Assembly: GCA_025201365.1 (NCBI GenBank)
Contig: JAIXMF010000239.1
Location: 1 to 21,450, forward strand
Length of the DNA stretch: 21,450 nt
Direction: 5' to 3'
Origin: Syncephalis plumigaleata
Lineage: Eukaryota > Zoopagomycota > Zoopagomycetes > Zoopagales > Piptocephalidaceae
The first letter of the stretch is position 1, and the number at the start of each line of letters is the position of its first letter. The notes under the pieces are model-generated. The model saw only the letters and a list, made by a program, of their open reading frames with translations. It made no database searches and was not told where the DNA came from. Positions 126 through 19,084 of the stretch are shown here, one piece after another. A program made the translations under genes and the position numbers.

Positions 126-1351
<1,226 letters not shown>

Positions 1352-2948: not shown

Positions 2949-3411
2949 TACTACATGTACATTTGCTATTGCTATTATTACTGTTGACTGACTTGACCTC
3001 CTACTATTATGCAGAGTAGCAAATGCTGCCGCAGATGCAATAACCATTTTTATTGCCGAATATATTCCGCTGTTGGCGTTTGAGGAATTGGCTTGGCCTA
3101 TGCGTTCATGATAGAGTACTACTACTACTAATACTATTGGTAACAGGAGAACAATTAGGGTAGGCTATTCATGAACTACAGGTTTGAGCGTGTGAGGAGT
3201 CTTCCATCTACCATGTGTTCTTCAAGTCATGCTTTACAGGCTTAGCACTGGATTGGCATAATGATGCAGTCTATCTCTTGCTTCTTGTTACTTGCTCTAT
3301 CAGTAGATAATAGATGGATGATCCATTTATCGACTAGCAATATGTAAATCAATGTAGCTATGTTATGTCTTTCAACTACCAAATACTAATGATACACGCT
3401 ATAATCTATGA

Positions 3412-3448
3412 TACAGTGTTTTTCCATCCAATTTGCGCATTTATCCTT
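3412..3448 (+). repeat. Left terminal inverted repeat and TA of the older element
   Basis: Begins TACAG. Pairs with 8178-8214 in inverted orientation, with mismatches only at 3417, 3418, 3440 and 3444. Confidence 0.85.
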
Positions 3449-3483
3449 TAACATTTGCAGTTTATTAATAAACAGATTAACAC

Positions 3484-3633
3484 AATTACACTTTAATATG
3501 AAGAATATTATACATGAATATATATTTTGCTTTTACCCTTTTCTCTTTATTAATATCGAACTAAATAAAGTAACTTGGGATTTTCCTCCTATAAATAGTG
3601 CCTAATGTGAGCATGTATATTTCTCGCTTATCC
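3484..3633 (+). repeat. DIRS inverted terminal repeat (3' end of element)
   Basis: Bases 3504-3633 are the exact reverse complement of 7516-7645 (130 bp). The outermost 20 bases differ from the other ITR, as expected for DIRS, where each outer end is templated separately by the internal complementary region. A TATAAATA motif at 3590-3597 points inward, mirroring the one in the other ITR. Confidence 0.95.
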
Positions 3634-3675
3634 GTTCTTCGCGGTCAATTCATGCTTGCGGAGGGTGTGGTGGGT

Positions 3676-3788
3676 AATATATATTCATGTATAATATTCT
3701 TCATATTAAAGTGTAATTTTCATCAAATAAATTCTCTAGAAAATTACTTTAATATTCATAATATTATACATGAATATATATTTTGCTT
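3676..3788. repeat. DIRS internal complementary region
   Basis: Bases 3676-3718 are the reverse complement of the left outer end (3484-3526). Bases 3715-3788 are the reverse complement of the right outer end (7617-7690). The two blocks share AATT at 3715-3718, the same tetranucleotide found at both element borders. The region thus joins both termini head to head, as in the DIRS-1 model where it templates completion of the ends during circle formation. The recombinase stop codon (3787-3789) overlaps its edge. Confidence 0.95.
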
Positions 3789-4779
3789 ATTCAGCTGACG
3801 CAAAGTGTACTGGACTTAAATCTAACACTTTTTCTGTAACATTACTTCTTAATAAACGCTGGCGTCTGTAATGTTTTTCGAATGTGCGTGCATCTGCCCA
3901 ATTGCCTAGTGTAATGATGTCATCGTGTGGTACACCTCTTTCAAGTGCTAAATCTGAAGCGATTGATCTGACACGAGGAGTTGGGCGAATGTCTGTTGAG
4001 AGCGCTGTCAACTTTGACAACCAAGAAGCAATGGTGTTATCGGCGACTTTATTGTGAGGCTTGCCTAACTTAGTGAATAGGTAGTTGTTTCTGACGATAT
4101 ATTGTGGGTGTTGTAATAGTGTTTCGTATGCTTGTACGGGGCATAGCTGTGGGATGTTGCTGTTAGGTGGAATAATGATTGGTTTAGTAATCGACTCCTT
4201 CTTTCGCTTTTCTTTCGGATTAATGATGTATAGCTGTAGGCCTTCGTCAGTTGTTTTTGATTGTGATCTGCAAATTCTATTGATATCAGAGGGTCTCAAT
4301 AGTGCTGACATTGCCAGTAAGTAAGCCGTTTTTCGTCGTAGTTGATCAAAATCAGCTGCTGGTGACGTCGGTATGGCGTATAAGTGACGTAATGTGGGCG
4401 TAATATCAACTTTTGATTTATTCAGTGGACGTGGGATGTATTTGAAGTTCCTTATCAGTGCTTGTATGTCAGGATTGGTTTTGATTGATTCAGGGCGTGT
4501 GTGTAGCTTGACAATTGCTGCTCTATAAGTTTGTAGAGTTGCTTTGCTGTAGCCTGCTTCATGTGCATCTGCTATGAAATTAACCAAATCTGCTGATGTA
4601 AATTTGCTGATATTGATATCCCTTTGGATTGCCCATGAAATGAATAATTGTTGACCTCTGATGTACGTTTTGTGCTTTACTTCTGCTAGAACTTTCACTG
4701 CCTTGTCCGAATATCCTGGCTCCTCATATTTTCGCTTGAGACACTCCACACGGATATTCTCCACTTGTGATTTGTCCAT
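3787..4779 (-). CDS. DIRS tyrosine recombinase, 330 aa
   Basis: Site-specific recombinase that would insert the circular DIRS intermediate. I start it at the ATG at 4779 (MDKSQVENIRV), which opens the recombinase-like part, although the same frame is open back to 6903. The N-terminal half resembles a SAM-like core-binding domain (TYIRGQQLFISWAIQ, then GYSKATLQTYRAAI). The catalytic half shows Arg in ALLRPSDINRI, a Lys-rich turn, the second box PRVRSIASDLALERG, and the nucleophile Tyr in FEKHYRR, preceded by LGNWADARTF. In the usual HxxR box the His position appears to be Pro (PRVR). The frame overlaps the RT frame by 85 nt and ends in the internal complementary region. Confidence 0.9.
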   Translation of the reverse strand: MDKSQVENIRVECLKRKYEEPGYSDKAVKVLAEVKHKTYIRGQQLFISWAIQRDINISKFTSADLVNFIADAHEAGYSKATLQTYRAAIVKLHTRPESIKTNPDIQALIRNFKYIPRPLNKSKVDITPTLRHLYAIPTSPAADFDQLRRKTAYLLAMSALLRPSDINRICRSQSKTTDEGLQLYIINPKEKRKKESITKPIIIPPNSNIPQLCPVQAYETLLQHPQYIVRNNYLFTKLGKPHNKVADNTIASWLSKLTALSTDIRPTPRVRSIASDLALERGVPHDDIITLGNWADARTFEKHYRRQRLLRSNVTEKVLDLSPVHFASAE

Positions 4780-6731
4780 GGCCAACTGGCGGAAGGGGAG
4801 GTAGTTTGCGCGTGGTGTTGTGGGTCGAGTATTATTGGGGGAGCTGTGGCTAAGTTGCTCAGTATGGGGAACCACATTGCTGACGGCCAGAATGGCGTCA
4901 CTATCGTTGCTTGTGCTATCTTCTCCTGTTGTATCTTGTTCACACATTTGGATATCAAGTTCCACGGCGGATTCAGGTAAGGATGGCTGAATTGTCTCCA
5001 GCTGATTGATAGTGCATCTGTGGCTATCGCGTGAGGGTCTGGCTTCCACGCTACATACGTTGGTAGTAGATGAGACGTTCGATCGGCGAATAGATCTACG
5101 TCGTGTTGACCGTACCTGCGTTGTATCTGTGCAAATGTGCGTGGATGTATTTGCCATAAGTTCTTGAGGTAGAACTTGCGCGATGCGTAGTCTGCTTCGG
5201 TATTCTGAGAGCCTGGAATGTGTTTGGCTCGAATCTGAATGTTCCTCTTGAGACACATCTCCCATATCTGCGTTGCTAGTGAGCTGAGTTGACGAGATCT
5301 CGTTCCTCCCTGCTTGTTGATGTATGACTTCGCCGTCGTGTTGTCTGTGCGTATCAGAATCGTCGTATTCGATAGTTGCGGTAATGATTTGATCATCAAT
5401 TCGATTGCTTTCAGCTCTCTCCAATTGATTGATTGCTTCGCTTCTTCGTGTGACCATAGACCTTGTATCATGTTGTTCTTGTAAACTCCACCCCATCCCT
5501 TGTCGCTGGCATCCACATAGATTGATGATGTTGGTGGACGTGTTATTAGTGATCTGCCGTTCCACTTGGATAGGTTGGTGGACCACCATCTCAGTTCTCG
5601 CTTGCAATCTGCTGGTAGCGTCTGTTTGCTGTCCCAGTTCTTGTTGTTCTTCACATGGGAATTCTTGAAGAACATCAATGCTTGGGTGTACAAGTTCACA
5701 GGAAATATTGCGATCGTCGCTGCCTTGATTCTCATTGTGAGACTGTGGATCATTCGAGGTGTTGTCGTATTGCTGTTGAGCACTGCTTTGATCGATTTGC
5801 GTATGTCGCGGATCTTCTTGGTGGGAAGCTTGATGGTCATCGTCTTCGTTTCTATCTTGAAGCCTAGGTGAACTAGAGACTGCGTTGGAGTGAGCTGTGA
5901 CTTCTTGGGATTCCACAGCCAACCTAGTTCTGCTAGTTTGGCCATTATTGTGTTTGTGTGACATTTCGATTCCTGCTTTGAGCTGGCGATGATGATCCAA
6001 TCGTCTAGGTATGCTGAAATTCGAATGCCTATTGACCTTGCCCATGCTAATACGGGCTTTGTTAAACGTGTAAAAACCCACGGGACTACTGACAGGCCGA
6101 AGGGTGTGGTGCGAAATTGGAATGTTTCTCCTTCCCAATTGAAACGGAGGTACTTTCTTGAGCTGCGATGTACCAAAATGTGTAGGAAGGCGTCGGTAAT
6201 GTCTATGGACGTGAGGTAGTCGTTTTTCCTTACTAGCTGGGTGACCTGTTGGATTGTCTCCATCTTGAAGTGAGGGGATATAACGTGCTGATTCAGTGCC
6301 TTCAGATTGAACACTGGTCGATAGCCTCCGTTCCACTTCGGGATGACAAACATGGGACTCATGTAACCTGGCGTATTCGTGGCAGGCTCTATTGCTCGTT
6401 TGGCCAATAGACTGTTGATCTCTTGCCTCAGTAATACGCGCTGTTCCTGGTTGAGCGGGATCGTCGGTCGCACTTTGTTTGAGATTGGTGGCCACTTGCT
6501 GAAATGTATCCGGAAACCTTCTTTGACGACGGCATGTACCCACTTGCTGTCTGTCAATCGAGCCCAGGCTAGATGGAAGCGCTGGAATCTGCCTCCTACT
6601 GTTGGTTGTTGTTGTTGTTGTTGTTGTGGTGGTGGTTGCCTCTGTTGAATTGGGGCTTGACTCTGCCTCCTCTTCTGTTGTTGTTGGCTTGGTTGAATGG
6701 GCGCTTCTGGTAAGAGTTCCTGTTGTGCCAA
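4695..6731 (-). CDS. DIRS reverse transcriptase / RNase H / methyltransferase-like polyprotein, 678 aa
   Basis: Copies the element RNA into DNA. After a Gln-rich N-terminus come RT blocks: PLNQEQRVLLRQEI, PKWNGGYRPVFNLKALN, LTSIDITDAFLHI (first catalytic Asp), FRTTPFGLSVVPWVF, and the active-site box AYLDDWIII. RNase H follows with IYVDASDKGWGGV, NWRELKAIELM and RTDNTTAKSYI carrying the acidic residues, then HIPGSQNTEADYASR. The C-terminal part has DVDLFADRTSHLLP and YLNPPWNLI, the NPPW box expected of the DAM-like methyltransferase domain of DIRS elements. It begins inside gag (136-nt overlap) in a different frame, so expression needs frameshifting, internal initiation or a separate RNA. No internal stop is present. 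Confidence 0.95.
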   Translation of the reverse strand: MAQQELLPEAPIQPSQQQQKRRQSQAPIQQRQPPPQQQQQQQPTVGGRFQRFHLAWARLTDSKWVHAVVKEGFRIHFSKWPPISNKVRPTIPLNQEQRVLLRQEINSLLAKRAIEPATNTPGYMSPMFVIPKWNGGYRPVFNLKALNQHVISPHFKMETIQQVTQLVRKNDYLTSIDITDAFLHILVHRSSRKYLRFNWEGETFQFRTTPFGLSVVPWVFTRLTKPVLAWARSIGIRISAYLDDWIIIASSKQESKCHTNTIMAKLAELGWLWNPKKSQLTPTQSLVHLGFKIETKTMTIKLPTKKIRDIRKSIKAVLNSNTTTPRMIHSLTMRIKAATIAIFPVNLYTQALMFFKNSHVKNNKNWDSKQTLPADCKRELRWWSTNLSKWNGRSLITRPPTSSIYVDASDKGWGGVYKNNMIQGLWSHEEAKQSINWRELKAIELMIKSLPQLSNTTILIRTDNTTAKSYINKQGGTRSRQLSSLATQIWEMCLKRNIQIRAKHIPGSQNTEADYASRKFYLKNLWQIHPRTFAQIQRRYGQHDVDLFADRTSHLLPTYVAWKPDPHAIATDALSISWRQFSHPYLNPPWNLISKCVNKIQQEKIAQATIVTPFWPSAMWFPILSNLATAPPIILDPQHHAQTTSPSASWPWTNHKWRISVWSVSSENMRSQDIRTRQ

Positions 6732-7426
6732 TTGGATTGATCCTGCCCGCCAGCGTTTCGTGGCGGGTCCGCTCGAAAAAACTGCTGGGCTTTTTTGTGT
6801 TCCAGTATGGCCTTCTTTTGGTTGCTTTGCTCAATGAAAGCTTGTTGGATAATTGCAAGGTCTTCCTTTGGTTGCTCTTCTTTCTGAATGAGTGTGAAGT
6901 CACTGTCCATTGACTTGAGGACCATATCCATTCTAAACGATTTCACAGTGTGAATCGTGTTTAACAGCAACGATCTAATATCGTCTAGAGCTACTACAAA
7001 CTGGCGATCAGCTTCCTGGTCTGCTTGTAGGATTGCTTGTTGTAGGATAACATCTAGCGGGCGTACAACGCCTGTTAATAAATATGCTATTTGCTTGAAT
7101 CGGCTGTCGTATGCCTTCTGATACTTGTTAAGTTTTGAGCTCGATTCATAGCTACTGACTGGCGTATAGTCAATACCTTCTATTGGAGCGTAGGCATCGA
7201 CTATTGCCTTCTTGTCTTTCTCAGATAAGCTAAAGTTATCCAGCCTTGCTGACCATGAACTGACGTGGTTAACAAAGTTTTCGTCCGGAATCCAGGTGTC
7301 CTTCTGCCTGGTCGGGAGTTGAACCTGCAGAGTTTCTTGCATCTGTTTGAACTGCTGCATAGCTTCTTGCATTTGCTGCCACATCGCCATCATCTCCTGT
7401 GGGTTGAAACCTTGATTTTGTTCCAT
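6596..7426 (-). CDS. DIRS gag-like protein, 276 aa
   Basis: First frame of the retrotransposon and the likely structural RNA-binding protein. It begins with a Gln/Met-rich helical segment (QQMQEAMQQFKQMQETLQ), continues with a helical middle (about residues 45-170), and ends in a basic, Asn/Arg/Gly-rich tail with an NNRRGGR motif, a His/Asn run and glutamines. No CCHC knuckle is visible, so the tail probably binds RNA. The ATG at 7426 is 126 bp inside a TATAAATA motif in the ITR. The Asn/Gln tail comes from a TTG/GTT triplet tract at about 6602-6630 and overlaps the start of the RT frame. Function is by position and composition, not by domain match. Confidence 0.85.
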   Translation of the reverse strand: MEQNQGFNPQEMMAMWQQMQEAMQQFKQMQETLQVQLPTRQKDTWIPDENFVNHVSSWSARLDNFSLSEKDKKAIVDAYAPIEGIDYTPVSSYESSSKLNKYQKAYDSRFKQIAYLLTGVVRPLDVILQQAILQADQEADRQFVVALDDIRSLLLNTIHTVKSFRMDMVLKSMDSDFTLIQKEEQPKEDLAIIQQAFIEQSNQKKAILEHKKAQQFFRADPPRNAGGQDQSNWHNRNSYQKRPFNQANNNRRGGRVKPQFNRGNHHHNNNNNNNQQ

Positions 7427-7490
7427 TGCAAATGTTGTAAATAACGCTATATAAAATATAATGATAATAGAACGCTTTAACTAGAACTTT

Positions 7491-7504
7491 GCGGTGATGA
7501 CCGC
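7491..7504 (-). other. Small hairpin in the DIRS gag leader
   Basis: GCGGT, a 4-nt GATG loop, then ACCGC, between the ITR TATA motif and the gag ATG. It would fold in the 5' leader of the element RNA. Role unknown. Confidence 0.5.
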
Positions 7505-7515
7505 GAAAGAGAAAA

Positions 7516-7690
7516 GGATAAGCGAGAAATATACATGCTCACATTAGGCACTATTTATAGGAGGAAAATCCCAAGTTACTTTATTTAGTTCGATATTAAT
7601 AAAGAGAAAAGGGTAAAAGCAAAATATATATTCATGTATAATATTATGAATATTAAAGTAATTTTCTAGAGAATTTATTTGATGAAAATT
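7516..7690 (-). repeat. DIRS inverted terminal repeat (5' end of element)
   Basis: Bases 7516-7645 are identical in inverted orientation to 3504-3633. The outer 45 bases extend beyond the left ITR and are matched instead by the internal complementary region. It carries the likely promoter for gag. Confidence 0.95.
7552..7559 (-). promoter_or_regulatory. TATAAATA motif in the DIRS ITR, candidate core promoter
   Basis: The motif reads toward gag and lies 126 bp upstream of its ATG. An identical copy sits in the other ITR (3590-3597), pointing inward on the plus strand. Placement fits a Pol II TATA box but activity is inferred. Confidence 0.5.
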
Positions 7691-7815
7691 GTTAACACCA
7701 TTATCACCGTAGATATGCCAATTGACACAGCATGATAATAATAACAATTCAGTATTAGTAATGGATCATTTATTGATAGCGATAACTATCATCATCAATT
7801 TTATAAGGTAGATGA

Positions 7816-8070
7816 TACAAGTGTACTAGTATAGTTGGATATTGCCATGTCATGTACTTACAAGTAGCTATTAATTATCGTGTATGGAATCGGGATATGG
7901 CTGCATGTTTGAATTTTATTCAGATTATTCGCAGTGTTCGTGAGGACAACCCTATTCCAACACAATTCCAGCGACGTGCCGTTTCTCCTCCTGAGCCTAG
8001 TACGTCCGCAAAAAATTCACTAAATGAAGATCAAGATCAAGAGGGATCTAAACATCAAATAACAAATTAA
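7816..8070 (+). pseudogene. C-terminal fragment resembling a Fanzor (eukaryotic TnpB-like) RNA-guided nuclease
   Basis: The frame opens after a stop at 7813-7815 and ends at TAA 8068-8070. It contains VWNRDMAACLNFIQIIRS followed by P and FQRR, resembling the WNRDVNAAxNI...RP..RR signature at the C-terminus of TnpB and Fanzor proteins. The Asp in NRDM corresponds to the last RuvC catalytic Asp. The usual CxxC zinc-finger pairs before it are not recognisable, and nothing remains of the N-terminal, wedge or earlier RuvC parts, so this is a remnant. A Ser/Pro then acidic tail of about 35 residues follows. It sits inside a TA-flanked TIR element, a known setting for Fanzor genes. A chance match of the short motif cannot be excluded without a search. 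Confidence 0.55.
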
Positions 8071-8073
8071 CCA

Positions 8074-8112
8074 GGTTGTATCGTCAACCGCCACACTGTC
8101 GCCCAAACGACA
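8074..8112 (+). ncRNA. Two tandem hairpins after the Fanzor-like frame, possible guide RNA scaffold remnant
   Basis: GGTTG/CAACC (8074-8078 and 8085-8089, 6-nt loop) is followed by TGTCG/CGACA (8097-8101 and 8108-8112, 6-nt loop). They lie between the Fanzor-like stop codon and the right end of the element, the place where TnpB and Fanzor systems encode their guide RNA. Stems of 5 bp are short and can arise by chance, so this is suggestive only. Confidence 0.3.
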
Positions 8113-8177
8113 ATGGCACCCAAAATACGGAGTAGTAATACTTGTAAGTGTTAACTATCATTTATTCGTAAAAACAG

Positions 8178-8214
8178 AAGGCTAACTGCGCAAATTGGAT
8201 GGAAAAAGCCTGTA
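8178..8214 (-). repeat. Right terminal inverted repeat and TA of the older element
   Basis: Reads TACAGGC inward on the minus strand and pairs with 3412-3448 at 33 of 37 positions. Confidence 0.85.
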
Positions 8215-8338
8215 TGTTAAACATATAAAGTGATAGTTTATTGTAAAAAGTCAAATCAACCTATTCATATTATTGTAACTTATGATATATATATATATAT
8301 TCGTAGATTTTAATTATATATTAAACCATGAACGGTAA

Positions 8339-18051: not shown

Positions 18052-19084
18052 TTATTCAGTGTTATGGGCAACAACACATTCACGCAAACCATCGATGACA
18101 TGTTTAGGGTCTGAAGCACCGAAAATGCTAGATCCCGCTACAATGACATTGGCACCTGCAATGGCCGCTTGCTTAATGGTGTCCAGATCGAGTCCACCGT
18201 CAACTTGGATGTCAAGATTAGGATATCGTTTGCGTAGTTCTACGACTTTTGGCATGCAATGCGGCATAAATAGCTGACCGCCAAAACCAGGTTCTACCGT
18301 CATGACTAGTACCTGATCTAGTTGATCAACGAACGGGTACACCGACTCAATGGGGGTGGCCGGCTTCAATGCTATACCAGCACGCATGCCAAGATCTTTT
18401 ATACGCTTGATCAATGCACTGGCATCCTCTAGAGATGGAATCATAGTCGTGCTAAGAAACTGTTACTCCTACGTGCAACGCACTACTTACCGGTGGCCTC
18501 GATGTGGAATGTGTACATGGAAGCACCCGCTTTGGCAAAATCGTTAACCCACTGCATGTACATGGAATGATTAATGGATATGTTGTGCTGCATCGTATGA
18601 AGAGGTAGATGGATGACGGAACAATACTTACTCTTTCTGGTTCCGATACCATGAGATGACAATCTATAGTAATAGTAATGGTAGTAGTAGTAGCATATCA
18701 TAATTAATAATAAACGTATGAACGATTGCTAGATCGATTAGCTCACCGAGAAAAGCATCCGTATGCTTACGCAACGATTTAATGATAGGCGGGCCTAGTG
18801 TAAGATTCGGTACGAAATGACTAACCCATGGCATGGTAAGCAATATGTAATGATGCATGCTTCTCGTGTCTACCACTACTCGGTATTCACTGCTGCTTAC
18901 CCGTCCATAACGTCTGCGAGCGAGTAATGAATGAGAGATAAGTTAGCTGTACAAATAATGCTTACATCAAACACCTACCCATATGCAAGTAGTCGGCACC
19001 CAGCTCAATCATACGTTTGCATTCAGCTGCCAAATTGGCGAAATCACCTGATAGCAACGAGGGTGCAATCTTTGCTTTGGGCAT
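18052..19084 (-). CDS. RPE: Ribulose-5-phosphate 3-epimerase, 6 exons, 220 aa
   Basis: Interconverts ribulose 5-phosphate and xylulose 5-phosphate in the cytosolic pentose phosphate pathway. Exons are 18979-19084, 18901-18913, 18747-18820, 18632-18663, 18491-18551 and 18052-18428; phases close to 220 residues, the usual size. It is a TIM barrel: [14 protein letters not shown] at the start, [20 protein letters not shown] with the metal-binding His and Asp, [10 protein letters not shown] with the next metal-site His, TVEPGFGGQ closing the active site, QVDGGLD with the catalytic Asp, and VAGSSIFG binding phosphate. Exon 2 is only 13 nt and encodes part of the DVMDGHF motif, so it is essential. 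The frame is open to an upstream ATG at 19153. Confidence 0.97.

Follow-up and report, generated by a model that had tools for sequence, protein, structure and literature searches.

Among the closest described systems are Fanzor-bearing elements of other fungi. According to the available text of Saito et al. (2023, PMC10432273), the genome of Spizellomyces punctatus contains 42 Fanzor loci, 19 of them full-length, together with 134 "ghosts", whose loci measure about 550 nt and have related inverted repeats (IRs). A conserved CA stands before the left IR of these ghosts, giving CATA, which is also the TAM of Spizellomyces Fanzor1, while omega-RNA is encoded at the right end. Ghost omega-RNAs of 75 nt supported editing comparable with that of extended canonical ones, and the biological role of Fanzor cutting is given in that text as unknown. 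For Fanzor1 of Parasitella parasitica (PpFz1, PDB 9cf0) the measured TAM is ATN (PMC11423790, available text), and the element SPu-1 is described with one open reading frame (Bao and Jurka 2013, PMC3627910, available text).

The DNA analysed here, the window, is the whole 21,450-nucleotide stretch of one Syncephalis plumigaleata contig (C156), and it was compared with the genome assembly of 32.6 Mb in 383 contigs. By sequence comparison, the element in the window is a shortened, largely non-coding copy of a Fanzor-bearing transposon of its own genome. Exons of host genes also lie in the window: one of ribulose-phosphate 3-epimerase (18055-18444, minus strand, E=1.9e-35) and a C-terminal exon of the Ras family (126-356, minus strand, E=4.8e-5).

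The window element and its coding remnant

The element spans from its left terminal inverted repeat (TIR) at 3414 to its right TIR at 8212 and is interrupted by a DIRS-like retrotransposon at about 3488-7686 (Table 1). AATT is present at both edges of this insertion, and 20 other aligned copies do not carry the retrotransposon. It has inverted terminal repeats, given that the frame of 3408-3605 recurs inverted at 7544-7747, and its Pfam matches are to a reverse transcriptase (E=1.5e-22) and a Dam methyltransferase (E=3.4e-7), with RNase H below the cut-off. The 1038-aa frame of the retrotransposon gave no Pfam match; a tyrosine recombinase is suspected by eye only.

Table 1. Features of the element in the window (positions are those of the window)
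Feature	Position	Strand	Basis
Left flank ATA, the target duplication TA with an A before it, in TAM-like position	3411..3413	+	sequence, pattern match
Left terminal inverted repeat, CAGTGTTTTTCCATCCAATTTGCGCA	3414..3439	+	alignment, genome pattern matches
Left fragment of candidate ghost element, up to retrotransposon insertion	3414..3487	+	comparison with contiguous copies
DIRS-like retrotransposon inside the candidate ghost element, not part of it	3488..7686	-	Pfam, copy alignment
Right fragment of candidate ghost element	7687..8212	+	BLAST against 20 fetched copies, alignment
Direct repeat D2, left copy; apparent deletion breakpoint in one type of the 210-239 bp class	7773..7792	+	by eye
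Open frame with relic Fanzor1 C-terminus	7816..8070	+	translation, protein searches
Stretch matching Parasitella parasitica Fanzor1, PDB construct residues 1221-1255 (WNRD region)	7873..7977	+	
RNA hairpin 1 (GGUUG-UAUCGU-CAACC), covering the final codons of the parental Fanzor frame; co-variation in the stem among copies	8074..8089	+	
RNA hairpin 2, found in some copies, with two sequence variants	8090..8117	+	
Predicted RNA hairpin 3	8126..8170	+	centroid fold only
Direct repeat D2, right copy	8142..8161	+	
Right terminal inverted repeat, read inward CAGGCTTTTTCCATCCAATTTGCGCA	8187..8212	-	alignment, pattern matches

The stretch shared with the 20 copies starts at 7684-7692 (mostly 7687) and stops at 8211-8221, taking the main BLAST match of each. 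The aligned copies extend leftward into a TIR, usually (TA)CAGTGTTTTTCCATCCAATTTGCGCA, and end on the right with the inverted CAGGC..., usually followed by TA; in L019, where the contig begins at this place, the tip of the left TIR is missing. In the window, TA lies directly 5' of the left TIR (3412-3413) and directly after the right one (8213-8214). The sequence-only reading had drawn the borders of the element at 7691 and 8214. Its right border, with the TIR at 8187-8212 and the TA, was recovered, whereas its left border was rejected, since position 7691 adjoins the retrotransposon junction and the other copies with their left side present run leftward to the TIR. The window copy was split later by the retrotransposon, and its right end remains whole.

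The 85 codons of the open frame contain VWNRDMAACLNF, IP and FQRR, as that reading had it, and the translation includes ...VWNRDMAACLNFIQIIRSVREDNPIPTQFQRR.... Its assignment to a Fanzor C-terminus is in agreement with the matches of a 72-aa query to solved Fanzor1 C-termini, those of Parasitella parasitica (E=0.0028) and, weakly, of Spizellomyces punctatus (E=0.48). RuvC I, RuvC II and zinc ribbon were not seen in the window element, where only Fanzor C-terminal codons were found. An accidental likeness between a short peptide and the Fanzor signature might be suggested by the length of the match, only 35 residues, and by the Pfam search of the fragment, which gave no match. It is refuted by longer Fanzor genes of this genome, which have the same TIRs and end in a near-identical C-terminus, and its probability is negligible. 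Indeed, a search of the genome with the 42-aa core scored the best 150 of 385 candidates at E values from 3.8e-24 to 1.4e-15, and therefore the frame is not a product of chance.

It is also very improbable that the short frame is a functional small protein, such as a dominant-negative Fanzor C-terminus or a repressor of transposition. The core frame is open in most of the listed copies, with a stop in 15 of the 150 matches and in 1 of 45 copies within a 30-codon core, and the pN/pS of this core is below 1 (0.65, in the 45 of 53 copies where the 30 codons are ungapped). Nonetheless, reading these codons in the remaining two frames yields 0.78, and the constraint at the protein level is therefore slight. 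Moreover, the region after the WNRD core varies by indels among copies, and TIR-family copies without the Fanzor core are common (14 short and 39 others, part of the latter fetched only partially, versus 53 with the core). A protein-coding role was rejected given that the constraint is only weak, and the frame looks like a relic on comparison of its copies.

Relatives in the same genome

The genome holds elements of roughly 4 kb with the TIRs and the C-terminus of the window element. L029 (C1:2508000-2513500) is about 4.4 kb long and has the same ends, a decayed Fanzor and a last Fanzor exon nearly identical to the window frame. Its left end is 91% identical to window 3381-3500 over 80 nt, and its positions 4093-4410 are 79% identical to window 7883-8215, an alignment that shows the sequence from the Fanzor stop codon to the right TIR to be retained in the window element. 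L073 (4.0 kb) has both TIRs and an interrupted Fanzor frame, whereas in L074 the zinc ribbon is divided between an exon of 640 aa and one of 151 aa, the left TIR being present in the fetched stretch and the right TIR outside it. These three elements end in the WNRDMAACLNF exon or carry its upstream exon with an intron-split zinc ribbon. RuvC I, RuvC II and the zinc ribbon are visible by eye in L074 and partly in L029 and L073, the DPG motif of L073 and L074 being read as RuvC I. The 640-aa exon of L074 matches the Fanzor1 of Parasitella (E=6e-105) and of Spizellomyces (E=5e-32). With the RuvC/zinc exon as query, 45 matches at about 40 places were obtained, 29 of the 45 in open frames of at least 539 aa.

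The window element descends from Fanzor elements, with which it shares its TIRs. The proposal that the relic belongs to an internally deleted derivative with longer parents in the same genome is thereby borne out, given that the genome-wide search for longer copies with the same TIRs yielded L029, L073 and L074. Three further loci were observed. In L030 (1984 bp) and L031 (1106 bp) the last exon is decayed and belongs to another Fanzor lineage; intron-like sequence precedes it. At L139 (C318:533310-533640) the best TIR-like sequence upstream of the Fanzor is divergent, with 12 of 32 positions mismatched, and this locus may represent a second TIR family carrying a close Fanzor.

The TIR has 863 matches in the genome (433+430) at up to 2 mismatches, while the reversed control has 0, and in a DNA search with 7691-8214 the best 40 of 848 candidates all cover nearly the whole query. 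The elements fall into classes of 210-239 bp and 525-608 bp, with one copy of 1106 bp and one of 1984 bp; further TIR pairs about 1.1 kb apart are found among the TIR matches. Copies of the window class share one internal-deletion junction (41 of 49, by pattern). One type of the short class resembles, by eye, a deletion between the direct repeats D2 with varying crossover points, and the other type has a different inner sequence. Over 49 copies the mean column identity is 0.97 and 0.96 in the two TIRs and lowest (0.51) at 8095-8124, in the region of hairpin 2.

A TA flank is found at 100 of 100 left ends and 99 of 100 right ends among the matches listed, which fits the mariner-like label of the sequence-only reading. 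The label itself is not proved: no transposase could be linked to these TIRs in a DDE_3 search of the genome, which gave 31 rows, and the one row inspected, at L013, had no TIRs around it.

The right end and the asymmetry of the flanks

In characterised Fanzor loci, the stretch from the stop codon to the right end encodes the omega-RNA, and the guide is read from the DNA just past the right end. Internal deletion would have removed most of the Fanzor gene from the window element and left its two ends in place, with the final Fanzor codons and the sequence from the old stop codon to the right TIR still present.

A co-varying hairpin is found at the position of the parental stop codon (hairpin 1). 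Its 5-bp stem occurs in versions that include GGUUG/CAACC, GAUUG/CAAUC and GAUAG/CUAUC, and the 15 distinct stems form on average 4.4 of 5 standard pairs versus 3.69 (sd 0.20) in shuffles, of which 8 in 10000 reach this value; the shuffles ignore relatedness, and the register is the better of two for data and shuffles alike. These stems come from a scan of 220 TIR ends, of which 73 were positive by pattern, giving 33 haplotypes; two haplotypes whose 5' side had fewer than 6 bases were omitted from the test. Among the 147 pattern-negative ends many left ends are expected, and the 12 that were printed look like left ends or short copies. Three of the 15 stems form only 3 pairs, and the stem also lies inside the parental reading frame, which counts against an RNA reading. 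Folding of the tail, scored against shuffles, has a mean z of -2.44 in the 17 of 49 copies with hairpin 2 and of -0.13 in the 32 without it, as sorted by pattern. For all 49 copies the mean z is -0.93 for the tail, -0.41 for the left part, -0.24 for the middle and -0.06 for the antisense tail. The tail of the window copy has a z of -1.69, with 17 of 200 shuffles folding as well, and the consensus that RNAalifold derived from 46 MAFFT-aligned tails was poor (-2.8 kcal/mol).

The left flank of the family is biased towards a TAM-like motif and the right flank is not. ATA stands before 161 of 253 exact left TIRs (C/G/T-TA before the other 92), versus 57 of 247 exact right TIRs read in the same way (other in 190; Fisher p=2.5e-20), where the background of A before TA is 0.33 and the counts include copies that may be alleles. 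With identical octamers removed, the values are 51 of 82 on the left and 24 of 87 on the right, for the first 100 listed sites per end whose eighth flank base is not C. The A precedes TA in 32 of 52 copies with the Fanzor core, 9 of 14 of the short class and 24 of 39 others, counted for elements by their left end only and with sites merged by flank similarity, which can join different sites or keep alleles apart. The window copy has ATA on the left and, read inward, also on the right and, therefore, is by itself uninformative on the asymmetry.

Among the 24 Fanzor loci of the window clade (84% or more exon identity), the flank is ATA in 16, TTA in 2 and GTA in 1, and 5 have no reading (1 without TIR in the fetched stretch, 1 at a contig end, 3 both unfetched and unlisted), so that ATA accounts for 16 of 19 readable flanks; within the 16, three loci have the flank GAAAAATA in common and could represent a single site. 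One of the two TTA loci has a divergent TIR, and the GTA locus has a broken Fanzor. The 16 more distant Fanzor loci (71-82%) have ATA in 6, CTA in 4 and an unread flank in 6, partly by eye. The flanks of L029, L135 and L136 were read by eye because their TIR is altered.

A symmetric TA target would lead one to expect equal flanks, whereas a motif on the left only is what RNA-guided retention beside a TAM would leave. The left-only ATA also fits the ATN TAM of Parasitella Fanzor1. Against this stand the short class, which has lost most of the right-end stretch and is also biased (9 of 14), the window-size copies without a 20-nt segment, which are weakly biased (ATA in 11 of 25), and the window-clade loci with TTA and GTA, together with the CTA found in 4 of the 10 readable distant loci. 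The idea of a strictly ATA subfamily beside a random one lost ground as further copies were included: ATA precedes 14 of 14 copies with the 20-nt segment and hairpin 2, 7 of 14 with the segment alone and 11 of 25 without it, in a table sorted by loose patterns in which several hairpin-2-like copies were scored as "none". No causal claim is drawn from this table, given its loose patterns and the fact that L029 and L074 lack hairpin 2 and yet have ATA.

The same flank data bear on the alternative that these are ordinary TA-target MITEs. The Fanzor end would then be dead DNA carried as a passenger, and the A on the left only would stem from a transposase with an orientation-dependent preference for its target. 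The premise of such a preference is present in the TIRs, whose outer bases differ (mostly CAGTG on the left and CAGGC on the right), and TA lies on both sides. The barely visible selection on the protein and the bias of the short class, which has little of the right-end stretch, point the same way, as do the right ends with CAGTG, where A is found in 2 of 3 among the matches listed (two may be one site). However, the left ends with the right-type CAGGC have ATA in 5 of 7 among the matches listed, which becomes 4 of 6 with a probable duplicate removed (p=0.03 versus 57 of 247) and 4 of 7 when the inexact L135 (TTA) is added (p=0.06); this argument is weak because of that duplicate and of L135. 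Outside the TA duplication, the A is moreover the single base predicted by the Parasitella TAM, and the window-clade Fanzor copies are stricter in it than all exact left ends (16 of 19 readable versus 161 of 253). The ordinary MITE is for these reasons considered unlikely, although it deserves more weight than the small protein.

The reading that we favour, and consider probable, is that the window element is a "ghost", a non-autonomous, MITE-like derivative of a Fanzor1-carrying TIR transposon that has kept its omega-RNA end and depends on Fanzor in trans. Copies would be mobilised in trans by a putative TA-targeting transposase, and the right end would still be transcribed as omega-RNA. Fanzor from full-length copies would use this RNA to cut the emptied site beside ATA, and repair from an intact homologue would then restore the element. 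The function that we regard as most likely would be to carry a guide RNA for Fanzor supplied in trans, the element itself being non-autonomous.

Occupied sites and comparison with known systems

Different elements were found at what appears to be the same site on two contigs. Grouping by left flank gave 21 pairs, of which 2 were false by flank identity and 4 had no comparable right side, leaving 15. In these the right flanks are 0.92-1.00 identical, while the elements differ more than the right flanks in 11 pairs, equally in 1 and less in 3. A length gap above 30 bp is found in 5 of the 15 pairs (e.g., 225 versus 602 bp, 533 versus 598 bp). Same-site pairs on two contigs with differing length or subfamily are L049/L074, L037/L025, L068/L013, L134/L009 and L091/L119, with flanks 95-100% identical where compared, L049/L074 being compared by 20 left-flank bases only. 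In this last pair, the 548-bp L049 shares 20 of 20 left-flank bases with the full-length L074, and the next TIRs are about 11 kb off on both contigs. The birth of L049 in place from L074 was rejected, since the identity of their ends is no higher than 93-95% and a deletion junction is common to the 525-608 bp copies (41 of 49, by pattern). For the same reasons it is more likely that the content was exchanged than deleted in place. We read these pairs as an apparent turnover of element content at fixed sites; part of them may be assembly artefacts, given that many partners lie on short contigs.

A wider interpretation, which we hold as tentative and rather doubtful, is that the several hundred ghosts may form a reservoir of guides for a few tens of Fanzor genes acting in trans, with the ATA bias as a genome-wide footprint of retention and the same-site differences as scars of cutting and repair. 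If this were true, the left-only ATA bias would be a footprint of RNA-guided retention in a eukaryote, and sites occupied by different ghosts, or by a ghost on one contig and a full-length element on the other, would bear witness to repeated cutting followed by repair from other copies. The 29 long Fanzor frames, the several hundred TIR ends, the one-sided flank that matches a measured TAM and the alternative contents of sites make the retention hypothesis directly testable. The literature listings and passages covered, with few preprints or subscription journals among them, described neither a ghost family in a mucoralean-type genome nor a one-sided TAM count of such size, and they gave no account of content exchange.

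In comparison with other described elements, the family resembles SPu-1 and other Fanzor1 elements in having TIRs and putative TA duplications; the internal deletions with intact 3' ends in the available text of Bao and Jurka (2013, PMC3627910) concern Helitron-linked CRe families, unlike the TA/TIR family described here. The IS200/IS605_NA MITEs of insect viruses are similar in that their TIRs equal those of TnpB-like-only elements, but they reside in viral genomes and have 10-bp TIRs, and an analysis of guide RNA or TAM was not found in the available text (PMC6004678). PpFz1, which has a cyclophilin-binding FRI domain, is the closest solved relative by sequence of the L074 exon (E=6e-105), and its measured TAM, ATN (PMC11423790, available text), fits ATA, whereas the window copy has no nuclease.

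The kind of ghost is already known from Spizellomyces (Saito et al. 2023, PMC10432273, available text). As in the Spu-1 ghosts of that species, the copies run from IR to IR without a Fanzor gene, beside tens of Fanzor loci of the same genome, with a motif before the left IR and with the stretch beside the right IR kept, which encodes omega-RNA there. Unlike those ghosts, the window-class copies keep about 40 Fanzor C-terminal codons and share a single deletion junction (41 of 49), their flank motif is an A before TA, and they belong to a family of several size classes. What is new here is the retained C-terminal codons, the size of the flank asymmetry and the presence of different elements at one site across contigs.
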